From Flavobacteriales bacterium (lineage in GTDB: Bacteria; Bacteroidota; Bacteroidia; Flavobacteriales_D; Crocinitomicaceae), in the NCBI GenBank assembly GCA_947497485.1, contig CANMHB010000004.1, forward strand, positions 62,001-126,000: DNA of 64,000 nt. Direction: 5' to 3'. The first letter of the stretch is position 1. Each line of letters starts with the position of its first letter. Both the position numbers and the translations under genes were made by a program. The notes below the pieces were generated by a model. That model was not told the origin of the DNA and ran no database searches. It was given only the letters and a program-made list of their open reading frames with translations. Shown in pieces: positions 33,826 through 52,032 of this stretch.

Positions 33826-36800
33826 ATGAAAATTACCATTTTTACAATACTCCTCTCGATTGCATGTAGCCATGTTTATGGACAAAATTCGGAATTGATG
33901 GGATTTTTTAGTCCAACTGTAAGTCATTTGGTTCCCGTTTCAATTGACCAGTCTGAGCCTAAAAATCAATTGATTAAACCCAATTTTAAAGGTCGTGATT
34001 TGATTGAGGTGGATAATTCGAATACGCACAATCCTGATTGGGTTTGGCAACAACATTCCTCGAATTTGAAAAGTACTTCAGCAAATATTAATTGGCAATT
34101 TCAAGGATTAGGTACAAATCTATCACCACCTGACCCAACTGTCGATGCCGATAGTACTGTGGTTATTCAGGCCACAAATGGAAATGGAGGAGGAGTTTAT
34201 CGAATATTCAATAAACTAACTGGCGCAACCATATTAAGCTCTGCGACATTACAAACTTTGGGAGGCCCATCAGGTGCTGGTGATCCAATAGTGCTTTATT
34301 ACAAACCTGCTAGAAGGTGGTTTTTAACTGAGTTTTCTAGTTCAGGAAATAAATTATTAATTCACGTATCTCAAACCTCAAATCCTCAGGGAGCATACTG
34401 GACTTATCAATTCACTTGTAATCAATTCCCAGATTACCCAAAATATTCATTTTGTCCATCCTCTGATGCATTTTTGGCCACTACAAATGAAGGGTCAGCC
34501 CCGAAAACGTATGCGATGAGATTAAGCACTTTGTTGACTGGTGGCACATCACCATTTATTAAAGTTGCAATAGGATATGGGTTGAATGGCTTTGGTTTTC
34601 AGTCTATTACGCCAGTGGATATTGAAGGTGATAATCCTGCCCCTTCAGGAATGAAGCCTCTTTTTGTTCGACATCGCGATGATGAATCTCATTCAAATGG
34701 CTCTCCTGACAGTGGAACTAACGACTGGATTGAGCTTTGGGAAATGACTATTAATTGGGATAATAGCACCGCAACTATCGCCAAGATTCAGGATATTTCG
34801 ATTGCTGAAATAGACTCTAAATTATGTGGTTTAACAAGCTTTGCTTGTATCAAGCAGCCTGGTACGACTAATACGTTAGATCCATTGCGAGAAACAGTTA
34901 TGTTTAAAGCTCCAATGCGCGTTTTTGATGATCATCAATCGTTGTTGCTCGCTCTTTCAACTGATATTGATGGAGCTGATCGATCTGGTGTTCGTTGGAT
35001 TGAATTACGAAGAAATTCAGGAGAAATAACTCCTACCTGGACTAAATATCAAGAAGGTACATATGCGCCGGGAGCTAATACGAGTCGTTGGATGCCAGGG
35101 ATCAATATGGATAAGCGTGGTAATATTTTGTTAGCCTATTCATCTTCTAGCAATGCCTCAGGTGATTTTCCTTCTTTAAAAATGACAGGAAGAAAACCTT
35201 GTGATCCACTTGGGACTATGACAATGCCCGAGACTACTATTGTTGGCGGAACCTCTTCTAAAAGTGGAGATACCAGATGGGGGGATTATCATCATTTGAG
35301 TATTGATGATTTCGACGGACAAACATTCTATTTTACGGGGGTTTATCACAATTCAAATACCAAGAGTAGTGTTTCTTCAATTCGCATCAATCCGGAAAAT
35401 CTTGATTTAGCGCTTGTTGGTGCTTTTCAGGTTTCTGATTCTGGATCCTGTGGTTCAGCAACGGAAGTTGGTTTGATAATCGAGAATCAAGGAATAACGG
35501 ATGTGACCCAAGGTTCTATCACTTGGCAAATTGGAAACAATAGTCCTACAACCGTAAATTTTATTTCAAATCAATTAACATCGGGCTCGATTGATACCAT
35601 TTATTGCAATATTATCGGATTAATTAATGGTTTCAATACAATATCTTTTGAGTTATTAAGTGTAAATGGTCAAGCTGATGAAAATAGTTGCAATAATGCA
35701 CGTTCGACACAAGTTAATATGGGGCAAGGCACATTCTTTTCAGTATCATCAAACATTAATACAGCACCTTCTTGCATAGGTGCAGATGGTTCGATAACTT
35801 TGGCTGTTTCAGGTGGAACAGCTCCGTATACTTTTTCGTTAAATAACGGGCAGTTTCAATTAGATTCAACATTCATTAATTTACAAGCCGGTTCATATAG
35901 TTATCAAATAGCAGATAGCACAGGCTGTTTGAATACGGGTTCATTTCAGCTTGATCCTTTAACTAATGTTGAGGTAAGTGGGAATTTAGTAAGTCCGATA
36001 TTATGCAACGGTCAAAGCGGATCGGTTAATATCATTGCATCGGGTGGTCAACCTGACTATGTTTATTCCTTCGATGGGGTCAATTATCAAAATAGCAGTA
36101 TAATTTCAAATTTAGTTGCAGGAACATATGCCTTTTATGCGAAAGATGTAAATGGTTGTGTCGGAATAACTGAATTAACGATAACTGAACCCACTGACTT
36201 GACATTAAATGCTATTCCAACTATGGTATTATGTAATGGTGAATCAAATGGCTCTATTTTGGCAAATGCAGCAGGAGGTATTGTTCCATATTCATACAGT
36301 TTAGACGGTGTAAATTTTACAAGTAACGGAACTTTTTCCAATTTAGGACCTAACTCATACGTTGTAACCGCGAGAGACGGAAACGGATGTCTTAAGACTT
36401 TTACAACCACAATAACGCAGCCGAATGAACTCATTGCAAATGGTGTCACTACGTCAGCTACAACTGGCACCAATGGAACAATAACCTTATCTGCAACTGG
36501 AGGGCTAACCCCCTACACATATAGTTTGAATGGAACTAATTATTTTTCTGGTGCGTTATTTTCAAATCTTGCACCAGGTTCATATACCGGTTTTGTAAAA
36601 GATAATAATGGATGTATTTCTTCTATTTCACTGATTGTTGGGGACAATAATTCAGGTCTTTCTGATTTAACTATTAATATTTTGAAATTGTATCCTAACC
36701 CAAATAAAGGAATATTTGAGTTGGAAATAGATGGTCTAACTGGAAAGGAAGTCGAGTTGAAATTTTTTAATATTGCAGGTCAACTTGTATCATCACTTAA

Positions 36801-36930
36801 ATTACCAGTAGAAAATGGAAAGATTATAAAAACTATTGAATTGAGTTCAAAATTGTCGTCAGGAACTTATTATTTAGGAATTTACGAAGGTAAGATCGCG
36901 AAGGTAGTTCAGTTTGTAAAAGAAAAATAA
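33826..36930 (+). CDS. Secreted T9SS-sorted adhesin-like protein with SprB repeats
   Basis: 1034 aa. Signal peptide 1-20 (ending YGQ). A large N-terminal domain (about 75-530) has beta-propeller-like features (GDPIVLYYKPARRWFLTEF, ending with SKSGDTRWGDYHHLSIDDFDG). A CARDB-like beta domain follows at about 530-635. Four SprB-type repeats span about 640-950, each of the form SGGxxPYxYSLDG...FSNLxxGxYxxxxxDxNGC. The T9SS type A sorting domain (about 960-1034) starts LYPNPNKGIFEL and ends VVQFVKEK. SprB repeats were named from the Flavobacterium johnsoniae gliding adhesin; here four repeats on a mid-size protein suggest surface adhesion rather than SprB itself. A strong bidirectional terminator follows. 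Confidence 0.85.
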   Translation: MKITIFTILLSIACSHVYGQNSELMGFFSPTVSHLVPVSIDQSEPKNQLIKPNFKGRDLIEVDNSNTHNPDWVWQQHSSNLKSTSANINWQFQGLGTNLSPPDPTVDADSTVVIQATNGNGGGVYRIFNKLTGATILSSATLQTLGGPSGAGDPIVLYYKPARRWFLTEFSSSGNKLLIHVSQTSNPQGAYWTYQFTCNQFPDYPKYSFCPSSDAFLATTNEGSAPKTYAMRLSTLLTGGTSPFIKVAIGYGLNGFGFQSITPVDIEGDNPAPSGMKPLFVRHRDDESHSNGSPDSGTNDWIELWEMTINWDNSTATIAKIQDISIAEIDSKLCGLTSFACIKQPGTTNTLDPLRETVMFKAPMRVFDDHQSLLLALSTDIDGADRSGVRWIELRRNSGEITPTWTKYQEGTYAPGANTSRWMPGINMDKRGNILLAYSSSSNASGDFPSLKMTGRKPCDPLGTMTMPETTIVGGTSSKSGDTRWGDYHHLSIDDFDGQTFYFTGVYHNSNTKSSVSSIRINPENLDLALVGAFQVSDSGSCGSATEVGLIIENQGITDVTQGSITWQIGNNSPTTVNFISNQLTSGSIDTIYCNIIGLINGFNTISFELLSVNGQADENSCNNARSTQVNMGQGTFFSVSSNINTAPSCIGADGSITLAVSGGTAPYTFSLNNGQFQLDSTFINLQAGSYSYQIADSTGCLNTGSFQLDPLTNVEVSGNLVSPILCNGQSGSVNIIASGGQPDYVYSFDGVNYQNSSIISNLVAGTYAFYAKDVNGCVGITELTITEPTDLTLNAIPTMVLCNGESNGSILANAAGGIVPYSYSLDGVNFTSNGTFSNLGPNSYVVTARDGNGCLKTFTTTITQPNELIANGVTTSATTGTNGTITLSATGGLTPYTYSLNGTNYFSGALFSNLAPGSYTGFVKDNNGCISSISLIVGDNNSGLSDLTINILKLYPNPNKGIFELEIDGLTGKEVELKFFNIAGQLVSSLKLPVENGKIIKTIELSSKLSSGTYYLGIYEGKIAKVVQFVKEK

Positions 36931-36952: not shown

Positions 36953-36981
36953 AAAAAGGGGGATTGACAATCCCCCTTTTT
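36953..36981. terminator. Bidirectional terminator between convergent T9SS genes
   Basis: AAAAAGGGGGATT, loop GAC, then AATCCCCCTTTTT form a perfect 13-bp inverted repeat with T-runs on both strands. It serves the SprB-repeat gene on the plus strand and the riboswitch-controlled gene on the minus strand. Confidence 0.93.
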
Positions 36982-36996
36982 GATTAATAAATTGAA

Positions 36997-38253
36997 TTAT
37001 AATTTTACGAATTTTTGAATTTGATTATTCGCGTTTATCAAATATGTTCCAGAATTTAGATTTGAAATATTAATGTTTGAATCGTTTGTAGAAATAACGA
37101 TTTTACCAGACAAGTCAGTAACATTGATTTCTGATCCATTCGAATTTTCAACTAAAATATAGCTAGAAGCAGGATTAGGGTAAATCGAAATGGGTTGCAT
37201 TAACTCATCTACTCCTGCAGACATTGAACGGATGTCAAAAACTATTGTTCCCGGAGAAACGCCTGCATCAAAGTTGCTTAGCTCATTGTTTTGAGAATCG
37301 AAAATATGAATCTTTCCATATGATGAAAAATCAGTTTCACTTGCGTAAAAATTACCCGAAATTTGCTCTTGTGCTAACTCGTAGTAATTAATTGTGTGGC
37401 CTGAAATTGGACCAACATTATTCATTAAACCTAAATCAAATTCATTTAAGGTAGTCTCCATTGAAATTTGATAAACTAATTTATTATCGCGCAATGCAGA
37501 TGTCCCACAACCAGTTATTGCAGATGAAATATTCGTTGTTGTTGGTGAGGATGAACCTATTGCTAATTTTGACACAGAGGCTCCCGACCAATCTTTGTTG
37601 TTTACCGTATATAAAATACCATTGAAATTGAACATATTATCTGGATTTTTTCCATCTGGACCCAAATCAACTTCATTTCCATATGTCAAAGAGTTTAAAT
37701 CCAATTTTCCAATTAATCCTTTTTCATTTCCCCACTCGTATGCATTGTTTACAGCAACGTAAGCATAGGAACCATCTACAACAATATTTTGAGTTGCCCA
37801 TTTTGGGCCTTGAATAGTGTCAATTGCAGTAATTAAGGATAAATCAGTAGCATCATAGACGTGTAAATATGAATCAAATGTTGTTAAATATTCACCTCGT
37901 GTAGCAATCAATTTATTTTGATGAATTCCCAAATTTCGAACTCCCGGACAATTTGCAGAAGCTAATTCCTGATGTGAATTCAAATCCATTTTGAAAATTT
38001 TTGAATCGGCTGCAACGTAGTAGAAATCGCCATCAATTAAAATATCGGATCCAAATCGCATACCTTCAAGCGTGTCAACAACATTATAGAATTGTGCACT
38101 GGGGTTGTAAGAACCAATCGTAACAGGTTCTAAAATCGTGTTTGTATTGTAATCAAACTTCCCTTCATTCAGGATGATCGCCTGATGTACGTAATTCTGT
38201 GCATTCGTAAAAGCACTTAGCCCAAGGCCAATGGTAAAAAATACCTTTTTCAT
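36997..38253 (-). CDS. BtuG/DUF5074-like beta-propeller protein with T9SS tail, under a cobalamin riboswitch
   Basis: 418 aa from the ATG at 38253, which gives a clean signal peptide (MKKVFFTIGLGLSAFTNAQ). The frame is open to a TTG at 38328, but that extension lies in the riboswitch leader. The mature N-terminus (VHQAIILNEGKFDYNTNT) and propeller-like repeats (GDFYYVAADSKIFKMDLN, GSYAYVAVNNAYEWGNEKGLIGKLDL) resemble DUF5074/YncE-type propellers, the group that includes the Bacteroides cobalamin-capturing lipoprotein BtuG. Residues ~345-418 are a T9SS sorting domain (ISIYPNPASSYILVEN...), and there is no lipobox Cys. With the B12 riboswitch upstream, a surface cobalamin-binding role is a reasonable inference. 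No btuB, btuF or cobalamin synthesis gene is adjacent. Confidence 0.8.
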   Translation of the reverse strand: MKKVFFTIGLGLSAFTNAQNYVHQAIILNEGKFDYNTNTILEPVTIGSYNPSAQFYNVVDTLEGMRFGSDILIDGDFYYVAADSKIFKMDLNSHQELASANCPGVRNLGIHQNKLIATRGEYLTTFDSYLHVYDATDLSLITAIDTIQGPKWATQNIVVDGSYAYVAVNNAYEWGNEKGLIGKLDLNSLTYGNEVDLGPDGKNPDNMFNFNGILYTVNNKDWSGASVSKLAIGSSSPTTTNISSAITGCGTSALRDNKLVYQISMETTLNEFDLGLMNNVGPISGHTINYYELAQEQISGNFYASETDFSSYGKIHIFDSQNNELSNFDAGVSPGTIVFDIRSMSAGVDELMQPISIYPNPASSYILVENSNGSEINVTDLSGKIVISTNDSNINISNLNSGTYLINANNQIQKFVKL

Positions 38254-38373
38254 TCGTTCTGTTTTTAAACGGTTAATAAATAAAATAAAAACTAGAAGAT
38301 GAAAAAAGAGGGAAACGAATAGGTGCAACTCTTCCTATTAACGAGTCCGACTTTAATCTGAAGTCTTCTCTCT

Positions 38374-38528
38374 GTTCCATGGCAAGTCTTCTGGCTCACA
38401 CTAAGATCAGTTCTCCTTCCCGAATAACAGTGGATCATGAACTGTTTTTAAAGTGCTTACAGCTGCAGATACAGCTCCGGATTCACACCGGATTCCTTTT
38501 TAATTTCGCATGACGAAAACCAAAGAAC
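38374..38528 (-). promoter_or_regulatory. Cobalamin (adenosylcobalamin-type) riboswitch aptamer
   Basis: Read on the minus strand, the core holds the standard elements in order. P1 is GTTCTTTGG (38528-38520) against CCATGGAAC (38382-38374). P2 is the small hairpin TTTCG-TCATG-CGAAA. The conserved string GGAATCCGGTGTGAATCC is followed by GGAGCTGTATCTGCAGCTGTAAGCAC, then CACTG and GAAGGAGAACTGAT. The B12 box AGCCAGAAGACTTGCC is at 38396-38381. The 120 nt between aptamer and ATG (38254-38373) hold possible switching stems: AATAGG/CCTATT followed by a T-rich stretch, and a second copy of GAAGACTT that repeats part of the B12 box. Whether control is by termination or by access to the start codon is not certain. 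Confidence 0.93.
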
Positions 38529-38633
38529 GTGGCAAAATTAATAAAAAATTGTTAATAACTTAAATTTCCCAAAAAAGAGATTTTAATTTAAAGTGCTTAT
38601 TTTTAGCATATTAATTTTTAAAAACTTTTAAAT

Positions 38634-39266
38634 ATGAAATTTGGAATAAGACATCAGGATACTTACTCGCGTGGTGAGTTAATTTTAAGAGGTTTGTTCG
38701 GTTGGTTGTATATAGCATTTCCTCACGCGTTTCTTTTGATTTTTTTACAAATAGGAGCTGCAATTGTTTCTTTTATTTCTTTCTGGTCAATTTTGTTTAC
38801 AGGAAATATGCCCAATGGAATGTTCAACTATCAACTAAACCTTCAAAAATGGACTTTAAGACTTAATGCAAGATTACTGAACCTTTCAGACGGATATCCA
38901 GCATTCGGTCTTAATTCAATAGATTCTAATACGTTAATAGAACTGGATCAACAAGAATCATATAACCGTATGAGTCTTCTTGCCAGGGCATTGTTTGGTT
39001 TTATATATGTATATATTCCTCATATGTTCTGTCTTTTCTTTCTTCAAATTGGTGCAATGTTTGTTCGAATAATTGCGTTTTGGGCTGTTCTAATAACAGG
39101 TAAATATCCGAAAGGTATGCACAACTATATGGTTGGTATTTTGCGTTGGAGTTTTCGAATAAATATTTTTATGACTTATTTGACAGATAGATATCCTGCT
39201 TTTTCAATGTCTGGAGATGAAGCGGATTTTGGACCAAGTGATTCTGGTAATCTTTTGGATAATTAA
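38634..39266 (+). CDS. DUF4389 membrane protein with internal duplication
   Basis: 210 aa. Two homologous halves (about 10-90 and 105-190) each contain RGLFGWLYIAFPHAFLLIFLQIGA / RALFGFIYVYIPHMFCLFFLQIGA, then a second hydrophobic stretch ending in ITGKYPKGMHNYMVGILRWSFR or its counterpart, and a DGYPAF / DRYPAF close. This gives about four membrane segments. DUF4389 is a domain of unknown function found in bacterial inner-membrane proteins. The start follows an A/T-rich leader and faces away from the riboswitch gene. Confidence 0.8.
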   Translation: MKFGIRHQDTYSRGELILRGLFGWLYIAFPHAFLLIFLQIGAAIVSFISFWSILFTGNMPNGMFNYQLNLQKWTLRLNARLLNLSDGYPAFGLNSIDSNTLIELDQQESYNRMSLLARALFGFIYVYIPHMFCLFFLQIGAMFVRIIAFWAVLITGKYPKGMHNYMVGILRWSFRINIFMTYLTDRYPAFSMSGDEADFGPSDSGNLLDN

Positions 39267-39281
39267 TATTCTTCATAAAAG

Positions 39282-39311
39282 TTGTTTTATGAAAATCTAA
39301 TTGTATCTTTG
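39282..39311 (+). promoter_or_regulatory. Promoter of rpsO
   Basis: TATCTTTG at 39304-39311 is an exact TAnnTTTG -7 box. TTGT (39282-39285), close to the -33 TTTG, lies 18 bp upstream. Transcription would begin near 39317 and leave a leader of about 50 nt before the rpsO ATG. Confidence 0.6.
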
Positions 39312-39321
39312 CAGTCGTTAA

Positions 39322-39336
39322 TCCGAAAAGTTCGGA
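39322..39336 (+). promoter_or_regulatory. Hairpin in the rpsO leader, possible S15 autoregulatory site
   Basis: TCCGAA, loop AAG, TTCGGA: a perfect 6-bp stem at the very start of the predicted rpsO mRNA leader, about 32 nt before the start codon. Ribosomal protein S15 represses its own mRNA through different leader structures in several phyla. Here the link is inferred from position only. Confidence 0.4.
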
Positions 39337-39368
39337 AACTACATAAAAATTATTTTAAAAATATTGGC

Positions 39369-39638
39369 ATGTATTTAGATTCATCAAAGAAAAAAGAAAT
39401 CTTCGCTAAACACGGAGGTTCTGAAACGAACACCGGTTCAACCGAAGGTCAAATTGCTTTATTCACATTTAGAATTAGTCATTTGACAGAACACCTTAAG
39501 AAAAACCGTAAAGATTTCGGTACGCAAAGAGCACTTCAGTTGCTTGTTGGTAAGCGTCGTAGTCTTTTGGATTATTTGAAAGGAAAAGATATAGAGAAAT
39601 ACCGTGCATTGATTAAAGAGTTAGGATTACGCCGTTAA
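39369..39638 (+). CDS. rpsO: 30S ribosomal protein S15
   Basis: 89 aa, the normal S15 length. Start at ATG 39369, giving MYLDSSKKKEIFAKHG; the frame is open further upstream to 39282, but that part covers the promoter and leader. Hallmarks are GGSETNTGSTEGQIALFTFRI, the HL..HLK..KKD-like helix (LTEHLKKNRKDFGTQRAL) and LVGKRRSLLDYLKGKD. S15 is a primary binder of 16S rRNA in the central domain of the small subunit. Confidence 0.97.
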   Translation: MYLDSSKKKEIFAKHGGSETNTGSTEGQIALFTFRISHLTEHLKKNRKDFGTQRALQLLVGKRRSLLDYLKGKDIEKYRALIKELGLRR

Positions 39639-39746: not shown

Positions 39747-40204
39747 GAGAATGATTTAATGACGGAACGAGAGAATGAAAATGGGGTGATTATTGAAGAA
39801 TGAAAAAACACAATTTTAGGGAAATAAAAATTTGGCAAGAAGCTTTATTAATGGTAAAAGAAGTATATTTATTTAGTTCGAAACTACCAAAGGAAGAAAA
39901 ATATGGAATTACTTCCCAAATAAATCGTTCTGCAGTTTCAATACCCTCTAATATTGCTGAAGGATCCGGTAGGACAACCAATAAAGAATTTGTTAGGTTC
40001 TTAGAAATAGCCATCTCATCTAGTTATGAGTTGGAAACACAATTAATTTTAGCCGAAGAATTATTCGATTTGTCATCTGTAGAATTAATTAAAAACCTTA
40101 ATGCTTTGCAGAATAGGATTGGTGGGTTCACTCGGCAAATTAAAAATAGAATTGAAAATGATATATAAATCATTAAGTCATTCACTCATAAAATCATTCA
40201 CTCG
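39747..40204. mobile_element. Candidate mobile cassette carrying a four-helix-bundle gene
   Basis: The only gene between rpsO and pnp is bracketed by short related repeats. On the left is GAGAATGATTTAATGAC (39747-39763) followed by a GAGAATGAA copy. On the right are direct copies of TCATTCACTC (40178-40187 and 40195-40204) within AAATCATTCACTC, which is an imperfect inverted copy of the left motif. The inside has no transposase. Boundaries are approximate. This layout, a 23S-intervening-sequence-type protein between attcactc-like repeats, is what I recall from other Bacteroidota genomes. Confidence 0.45.
39800..40168 (+). CDS. Four-helix-bundle protein (23S rRNA intervening-sequence protein family)
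   Basis: 122 aa, all-helical. Family hallmarks: a start FREIKIWQEALLMVKEVY, then LPKEEKYGITSQINRSAVSIPSNIAEGSGR with the strongly conserved IPSNIAEG, then EFVRFLEIAISSSYELETQLILA. The family (TIGR02436/PF05635) is named for proteins encoded in intervening sequences of 23S rRNA genes and is related in fold to the Avd accessory protein of diversity-generating retroelements. Its function is unknown. There is no rRNA gene or reverse transcriptase here. It lies between rpsO and pnp, normally close neighbours in bacteria, and is flanked by short repeats. Confidence 0.9.
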   Translation: MKKHNFREIKIWQEALLMVKEVYLFSSKLPKEEKYGITSQINRSAVSIPSNIAEGSGRTTNKEFVRFLEIAISSSYELETQLILAEELFDLSSVELIKNLNALQNRIGGFTRQIKNRIENDI

Positions 40205-51855: not shown

Positions 51856-51886
51856 TTTAACCCAAGATATGGATTCACAAAAAAAA

Positions 51887-51983
51887 GGGTAAGCTACTCT
51901 TATCGCACCGCTACAACCTCATACCTTTGCTACGTTCCCGTCCTGGAGGATTAAGAGGGAGCTGGTCGTAAAAGACTTACCCC
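51887..51983 (-). ncRNA. ffs: Signal recognition particle RNA (small bacterial type, 4.5S-like)
   Basis: On the minus strand a ~97-nt hairpin starts GGGTAAGTC and ends GCTTACCC. The Ffh-binding domain is CCAGGACGGGAACGTAGCAAAGG, containing the GGAA tetraloop and the asymmetric loop signature. The strands flanking it pair along most of the length. The transcript runs into an 8-T tract (plus-strand A's 51879-51886), a natural terminator. The RNA binds Ffh to target membrane and exported proteins. Confidence 0.87.
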
Positions 51984-52032
51984 AGGACAAAGTTAATCAA
52001 ATATTCAGTTTTCGATTAACAATTTTCTAGAT

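Follow-up and report, generated by a model that had tools for sequence, protein, structure and literature searches.

A cobalamin riboswitch, a BtuG-like propeller with a type IX secretion tail, and the exchange of its gene for a BtuB operon among Crocinitomicaceae

In hemophores and other secreted nutrient carriers, an exported protein captures a cofactor and passes it to an outer-membrane receptor. For vitamin B12 (cobalamin), the closest described counterpart of the protein considered here is BtuG (BT1954/BtuG2, a propeller of the YncE/DUF5074 group), which is defined in PMC6143338 as a surface lipoprotein with a lipobox cysteine and an export signal. We analysed a stretch of 64,000 nucleotides (nt), the window, from Flavobacteriales bacterium (Crocinitomicaceae; assembly GCA_947497485.1, contig CANMHB010000004.1, positions 62,001 to 126,000, forward strand), whose genome comprises 3.1 Mb and is 99.99% complete. 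Behind a cobalamin riboswitch, the window encodes P0001, a protein of 418 amino acids (aa) that consists of a signal peptide, a propeller and a type A sorting tail of the type IX secretion system (T9SS). Labels of the form G0nn denote genomes, G000 being that of the window, and L0nn to L3nn denote loci or contig pieces. P0001 is probably a corrinoid-binding extracellular protein, that is, a divergent BtuG propeller that would be exported by the T9SS, be repressed by B12 and feed a TonB-dependent receptor other than BtuB. The cobalamin scavenger proposed in an original prediction for this DNA is, we infer, the likeliest role.

P0001 is like BtuG in fold (target TM about 0.8), in an Asn-Glu-Gly (NEG) loop and four aromatics that align with those of the pocket, in its strong negative charge and in its presumed control by a cobalamin riboswitch. 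Unlike BtuG, it carries a T9SS tail instead of a lipobox and lipid anchor, it is not encoded next to btuB, its identity to BtuG is about 15%, and it lacks both a Pfam DUF5074 match and conservation at the position of Trp272. Because the lipoprotein and btuB-partner features were looked for and not found, we do not class P0001 as BtuG; we nevertheless expect it to work like BtuG. It does have the C-terminal domain and signal peptide of T9SS type A substrates. With hemophores it would share the role of an exported capture protein, the carrier role of the propeller being our proposal, whereas ligand, fold and secretion route differ.

The strongest argument for a role of the propeller gene in B12 acquisition is that, behind a B12 sensor, it alternates with a B12-uptake operon. 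When 60 relatives were searched at the protein level, 30 of the 37 genus genomes, that of the window among them, proved to have long homologues (293-418 residues matched, 53-100% identity in the best segments); a 31st genome, G030, has a fragment at a contig end, and the propeller of G020 is split over two contigs. RF00174 occurs exactly once in 35 of the 37 genomes and was not found in G006 and G031. Thirty-one genomes thus carry the propeller, four (G016, G018, G025 and G026) carry an operon in which the riboswitch is followed by genes for a T9SS-tailed DUF4465 protein, BtuB, a DUF5074 lipoprotein and a protein X, two carry neither, and none carries both. Of the two with neither, G031 is 66% complete, and G006 has an 82-residue C-terminal propeller piece at a contig start. 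The operon genes were identified with Pfam in the G016 set and by identity in the other three genomes. DUF4465 proteins are described as binding B12 (PMC13398666), and the 654-aa receptor of the G016 operon, whose best PDB match is BtuB1 (8blw chain A, 2.1e-75), is a true Bacteroidota BtuB. The operon and the window's locus have in common the same kind of riboswitch, a shared site and an exported first gene product with a T9SS tail (Pfam-checked in G016); they differ in that the operon has four genes, including the receptor and a BtuG lipoprotein, and the window's genome has one.

The genes that flank the G016 operon recur at part of the propeller loci. We scanned GTDB genomes and used the best 80 of 106 relatives' loci, from Crocinitomicaceae, Flavobacteriales and other Bacteroidota metagenome-assembled genomes; these loci overlap with the genus genomes (L215, e.g., belongs to G032) and are not independent, and L371 and L372 duplicate the propeller sequences of L198 and L194. 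Going by names assigned by eye, rpsO is present in 36 of the 80, a PRTase-like gene in 40 and a MurQ-like gene in 39; the window shares only the rpsO/pnp side with the G016 flanks. In two pairs of close relatives, the exchange of propeller for operon behind the same riboswitch is precisely what sets the partners apart. The propeller locus L215 (its genome, G032, is 97% complete and has no BtuB match) and the operon locus L062 (G016) have in common a stretch of 1505 nt (90.6% identity) that extends a little beyond the aptamer and a downstream one of 3353 nt (87.9%); these stretches are 1.38 kb apart in one locus and 5.05 kb apart in the other. For the propeller locus L212, read at the locus only, and the operon locus L065, the common stretches comprise 219 nt around the aptamer (94.5% identity), another 153 nt (80.4%) and, downstream, 3965 nt (88.7%). 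In a tree of MurQ and PRTase from 43 loci, propeller and operon states interleave within a six-locus clade (support 99); L212 and L065 group at 98, and L215 pairs with L062 (no support value given). In the propeller tree L215 groups with L212 (again with no support value) within a clade whose support is 100. More than one exchange is required, and the exchanges may have run in either direction. BtuB is 88% identical between L062 and L065 and 71% between L062 and L064, and the flanking genes run in the opposite order, at 75-82% and 81-89%, respectively. This suggests that BtuB was transferred; the other operon genes give no clear sign of transfer. The X of the G016 operon has a T9SS-tail match just under cut-off. 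Protein X (L062:3834-4790 (-), L078:7559-8539 (-) and counterparts) is about 320 aa long, has a T9SS-tail match and no other Pfam domain, and recurs in riboswitch-BtuB operons of several families of the order; it is presumably B12-related.

The linkage to the riboswitch extends beyond the genus. Using a nucleotide profile built from 17 genus aptamers, we found the riboswitch 69-161 nt upstream of the propeller gene at 78 of the 80 loci, the contigs of the other two ending too early; this pairing is more than chance. In the profile survey 73 of 249 order genomes were matched at E up to 1e-15, a few of them by fragments, and the riboswitch is present at all three g27 loci and at the only f3 locus with room upstream. 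At 51 of the 76 loci that show a next downstream open reading frame (ORF), this ORF is on the same strand, in 29 of the 51 being the PRTase-like ORF of the shared flank; co-transcription with genes outside uptake is therefore possible in relatives. Two BtuB queries against the flanks of the 80 loci (E < 1e-4) found nothing except one receptor at L223, with 24% identity and on the opposite strand. Other arrangements also place a T9SS-tailed protein first behind the riboswitch (L062, L068, L070 and L079). Operons of the form riboswitch-propeller-X-BtuB-BtuG, which occur in G041, G046 and G049, begin with a distant propeller (24-27% identity, the tail Pfam-checked in L079), and in G038 a T9SS-tailed DUF4465 protein is the first gene product of the riboswitch operon. 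G040 is like the window in having a lone riboswitch-led, T9SS-tailed DUF5074 protein (L070; PF16819 4e-18, PF18962 8.1e-12); unlike the window's genome, it has a second riboswitch that leads X-BtuB-BtuG (L071). As a separate observation, a second exported-protein gene, lipoprotein-like by eye, follows the propeller at L222:8264-9337, L224:8216-9373, L225:8225-9283 and L227:1676-2794; those of L224, L225 and L227 have a weak BLAST match to BtuG, and that of L222 falls in a cluster of four first downstream genes.

The assignment of the protein to the DUF5074/BtuG group in the original prediction stands as far as profiles and fold are concerned and fails in Pfam, where DUF5074 is unmatched; profiles and a fold were needed for the BtuG link. 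Against 14 lipoproteins encoded in riboswitch-BtuB operons of the order, hhalign gave a probability of 98.8% (E 6.2e-17, 284 columns), and the profile of these lipoproteins itself matches BtuG2 (8bmx chain D) at 8.6e-93; against a BtuG2-led profile the values were 99.5% and E 4.6e-22. At E < 1e-3 the profile of our 62-row family alignment matched, among all PDB sequences, only three T9SS tails and nine BtuG/YncE-family chains (3dsm, 8bmy, 8bn0, 8baz, 8bai, 8bmx, 8okv, 8puj and 8p97), the next match being a designed propeller at E 0.29. A phmmer search of the PDB with P0001 alone returned a T9SS tail as the best match (0.034), followed by two unrelated matches with E > 1. A single-sequence AlphaFold model (pLDDT 32) was discarded, and a model from the 62 sequences (AF2) with a mean pLDDT of 87.5 over the whole protein was used instead. 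The structural comparison with BtuG that the original prediction had proposed came out in its favour: BtuG chains occupy Foldseek ranks 1-13 (E 2.6e-15 to 1.9e-13, target TM 0.76-0.82, about 15% identity), 3dsm being counted as such after PMC6143338 and the others by PDB title. Rank 14 is Tako8 (rmsd 19.5), and among the 50 listed matches the best target TM outside BtuG is 0.71, so that within this list solved BtuG structures match the fold better than other propellers do. Weak OLF and LVIVD matches were taken as a generic propeller signal and not as identity.

The T9SS tail is the sole feature of P0001 above cut-off in Pfam and NCBIfam (PF18962, E 1.1e-10; TIGR04183, 38.1 bits against a cutoff of 23, E 1.1e-9). 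At E up to 0.1, PF18962 matches 57 of the 62 alignment members, and the T9SS translocon SprA is encoded in the window's genome. The type A tail and the absence of a lipobox, both claimed earlier, are confirmed, the signal peptide having no cysteine.

Four of the five aromatics named for the ligand pocket of BtuG2 also align with aromatics of the propeller. According to PMC10404256, Trp194, Trp272 and Tyr316 narrow the cavity of BtuG2, Tyr239 and Tyr335 make further contacts, and the loop Asn54-Thr64 forms one jaw that grips the ligand in simulations. In the hhalign alignment Asn54-Glu55-Gly56 correspond to N29-E30-G31, the NEG loop, which is invariant in 62 of 62 rows; the motif IILNEGKFDYNTNT, to which the original prediction had drawn attention at the start of the protein, aligns with the start of the BtuG2 loop. 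W194, Y239, Y316 and Y335 correspond to W174, W222, Y291 and F309, each of them aromatic in all 62 rows. As a control for bias, we scored the other aligned BtuG2 aromatics against the positions that are aromatic in at least 90% of rows (28 of 324): 14 of these 41 fall on a conserved aromatic, compared to four of the four from the pocket (one-sided Fisher 0.02). The net charge is -20 for the propeller (-33 to -14 in the family) and -18 for BtuG2, and the negative charge fits the electrostatic capture that PMC10404256 proposes.

These features suggest how the system may work. At low internal B12 the riboswitch would be open and the gene expressed, cobamide riboswitches being described as repressing when the vitamin is present (PMC8941943). 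The protein would be exported by Sec and then by the T9SS, instead of as a lipoprotein, and would be anchored at the surface or released, the two outcomes reported for type A tails (PMC12618676). At or outside the cell surface the propeller would capture the corrinoid and pass it on to a TonB-dependent receptor other than a recognisable BtuB; BtuFCD would then import the corrinoid into the cytoplasm, where MetH and further B12 enzymes would use it. The sequence supports this mechanism up to export, and the later steps are those that we infer. The window's genome encodes MetH (Met_synt_B12, 3.5e-126), two more large proteins in which a B12-binding domain (PF02310) scores above cut-off, and a BtuF-BtuC-BtuD-like operon (PF01497, PF01032 and an ABC ATPase). 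The permease of this operon gave the genome's single FecCD match; in G041 the riboswitch operon has a FecCD gene close by.

The original prediction had noted that no btuB neighbours the gene; in addition, no BtuB was recognised anywhere in the window's genome. Orthologues of the G016 BtuB were found in five of 61 genus genomes, that of the window not among them. The G016 BtuG query gave full-length orthologues in the same five and weak partial matches in two more, and no BtuG lipoprotein was recognised in the window's genome. There, a 14-row BtuB profile matched only parts of other receptors (best 7.9e-13 over 175 columns). We therefore compared all Plug matches of G000 (19, of which 18 are above cut-off), G014 (19), G019 (20), G016 (23) and G025 (20), grouping the genes by reciprocal best hits. 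Fourteen receptor groups are common to the five genomes, a few of them with identities as low as 26-36% and some perhaps not orthologous, and the BtuB group is confined to G016 and G025. The single group present in three of three propeller genomes and in neither of the two BtuB genomes was rejected, being SusC-like and located beside a gene that by eye is glycosidase-like. A check profile from ten BtuBs from outside the genus gave 174 bits for the G016 BtuB and 173 for that of G025. Its best matches in the window's genome are a tandem receptor pair near metH (L130; 79 and 72 bits), which by this measure appear to be the most BtuB-like receptors of that genome. In G014 it gave 127 bits for a 628-aa receptor (L285:666-2552 (-)). 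The rest of the receptors reach at most 96.

Several observations weigh against P0001 as a BtuG-like B12-binding protein. Pfam DUF5074 (PF16819) does not match it at E up to 1, which was the outcome of the profile check suggested with the original prediction, and DUF5074 is absent among the 17 Pfam families matched by the 62 alignment members (E up to 0.1). Trp272 of BtuG2 aligns with a gap and has no counterpart in the propeller. In family f9 (35 genomes matched) RF00174 was found at none of the 21 loci fetched, nor up to E 5 at seven of them searched more permissively, and each pocket aromatic is kept in 20 or 21 of the 21; in this family something other than the riboswitch controls the propeller gene, or its use is a different one. 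In the alignment, no aromatic stands at the W222 and Y291 positions of the propellers of L072, L078 and L079, which are borne in operons and may bind differently. Propellers bind many things, and the f9 homologues would suit a protein that no longer binds B12 and acts as an adhesin or on another ligand, with the riboswitch kept for other reasons. We consider this very improbable for P0001, given the retention of the riboswitch at nearly all of the 80 loci, the alternation with a B12-uptake operon within two pairs of relatives, the conservation of the four aligned pocket aromatics and the NEG loop throughout the alignment, and BtuG as the closest PDB match by both sequence and fold.

The receptor is the other point at which the proposal of a B12-capturing P0001 that bypasses BtuB is exposed, since no partner was identified among the receptor groups of the five genomes. 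A BtuB-like receptor too divergent to recognise may be encoded elsewhere, in which case the system would be an ordinary BtuB-BtuG pair whose BtuG moved to the T9SS and lost its linkage. The many Plug matches in the window's genome, several of them weakly matched by the BtuB profile, leave room for this, and L285 is possibly a divergent BtuB in a propeller genome, which also speaks against a receptor other than BtuB. The chains that L285 matches, mainly in its plug region, are of the CirA, pyochelin-receptor, FhuA and E. coli BtuB types, and in NCBIfam TIGR01779 it reaches 89 bits, compared to 75 for the G016 BtuB and a cut-off of 599.7; however, none of the receptors in the other four genomes corresponds to it. 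In NCBIfam the L130 pair scores higher with heme/hemoglobin receptors (111 and 115 bits at best) than with B12 receptors (70 and 82), all below cut-off, and its presence in the BtuB-carrying G016 and G025 rules it out as a propeller-specific receptor. At 10 of the 80 loci (L178, L179, L180, L185, L194, L196, L197, L198, L201 and L202), a same-strand gene for an orthologue of the L132 receptor of the window's genome stops shortly before the riboswitch, and the duplicates L371 and L372 show it too. An L132-type receptor is thus a possible partner, which we treat as a lead only, since the group is absent from the propeller genomes G014 and G019. Because true BtuBs of the genus score far above these candidates and are found in few of its genomes, an unrecognised BtuB seems doubtful to us. 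The protein might alternatively work free in the medium as a released B12 sponge or carrier, as hemophores do, rather than as a lid docked on a receptor. Type A tails allow release (PMC12618676), there is neither a lipid anchor nor a linked receptor in the window, and added soluble BtuG is reported to sequester corrinoid in coculture (PMC13374852); surface anchoring is equally allowed by the sequence, and we regard a freely working sponge or carrier as unlikely. A tentative extension of the preferred reading, in which P0001 feeds a receptor other than BtuB, is that one T9SS-exported, BtuG-like "cobalophore", at the surface or soluble, replaces the whole DUF4465-BtuB-BtuG-X module and feeds a general TonB-dependent receptor, which would make BtuB dispensable through much of a B12-using genus. 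The finding links type IX secretion to vitamin capture, and the genus poses the question of whether a secreted BtuG-type protein can replace BtuB, and via which receptor. Among the titles listed from the open-licence literature (in one search the first 12 of 394), none is on a T9SS-exported BtuG; those listed for BtuG or BtuB together with type IX secretion concern BAM complexes and protease secretion, judging by title.

The features of the locus are compiled in Table 1. The riboswitch is complete, as had been predicted for positions 38374-38528, which the RF00174 match encloses; over the full aptamer it scores 95.5 bits against a gathering score of 31.5 (E 1.7e-22, cmscan of the window), and a genome-wide search found this one match only. 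The downstream neighbour is a convergent gene (33826-36930 (+)) and the gene behind the riboswitch is divergent, starting at 38634 (+); the propeller gene therefore stands alone in the window, as originally described.

Table 1. Coordinates of the riboswitch, the propeller gene and its parts in the window.
Feature	Position	Strand	Basis and remarks
Cobalamin riboswitch aptamer	38364..38539	-	RF00174, model 1-189
Leader, presumed expression platform	38254..38363	-	110 nt between aptamer and ATG, from sequence
Gene of the 418-aa BtuG-like propeller with T9SS tail (P0001)	36997..38253	-	Translation and homologues; ATG at 38253, 418 codons, stop ends at 36997
Sec signal peptide, about residues 1-19, no Cys	38197..38253	-	Sequence, cleavage site guessed by eye; helix 3-16 in the AF2 model at low confidence
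BtuG-like beta-propeller, about residues 20-344	37222..38196	-	hhalign, AF2, Foldseek
T9SS type A C-terminal sorting domain, residues 357-417	37003..37185	-	PF18962, TIGR04183
GGGGGATTGTCAATCCCCC hairpin with A and T tracts, likely terminator	36953..36981	-	Read by eye; placed between two convergent genes

A loop motif shared by the leaders was sought, and a loose TTGCAC-like pattern was present in only 24 of 78; we make no claim for it. In the window's genome MetH is split (L130:10261-14420, contig C12) into an S-methyl_trans ORF of 331 aa and the rest of 888 aa, with an ORF of the 23S_rRNA_IVP family (117 aa) between the two; G016 has two MetH ORFs without this intervening ORF. Another gene of the 23S_rRNA_IVP family (PF05635, 1.1e-32) lies in the window at 39800-40168 (+), between rpsO-like and pnp-like ORFs. 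The window also contains an S15-Flavobacteria ribosomal leader at 39304-39371 (+) with 58.8 bits and a Bacteroidales small SRP RNA at 51883-51989 (-) with 107 bits.

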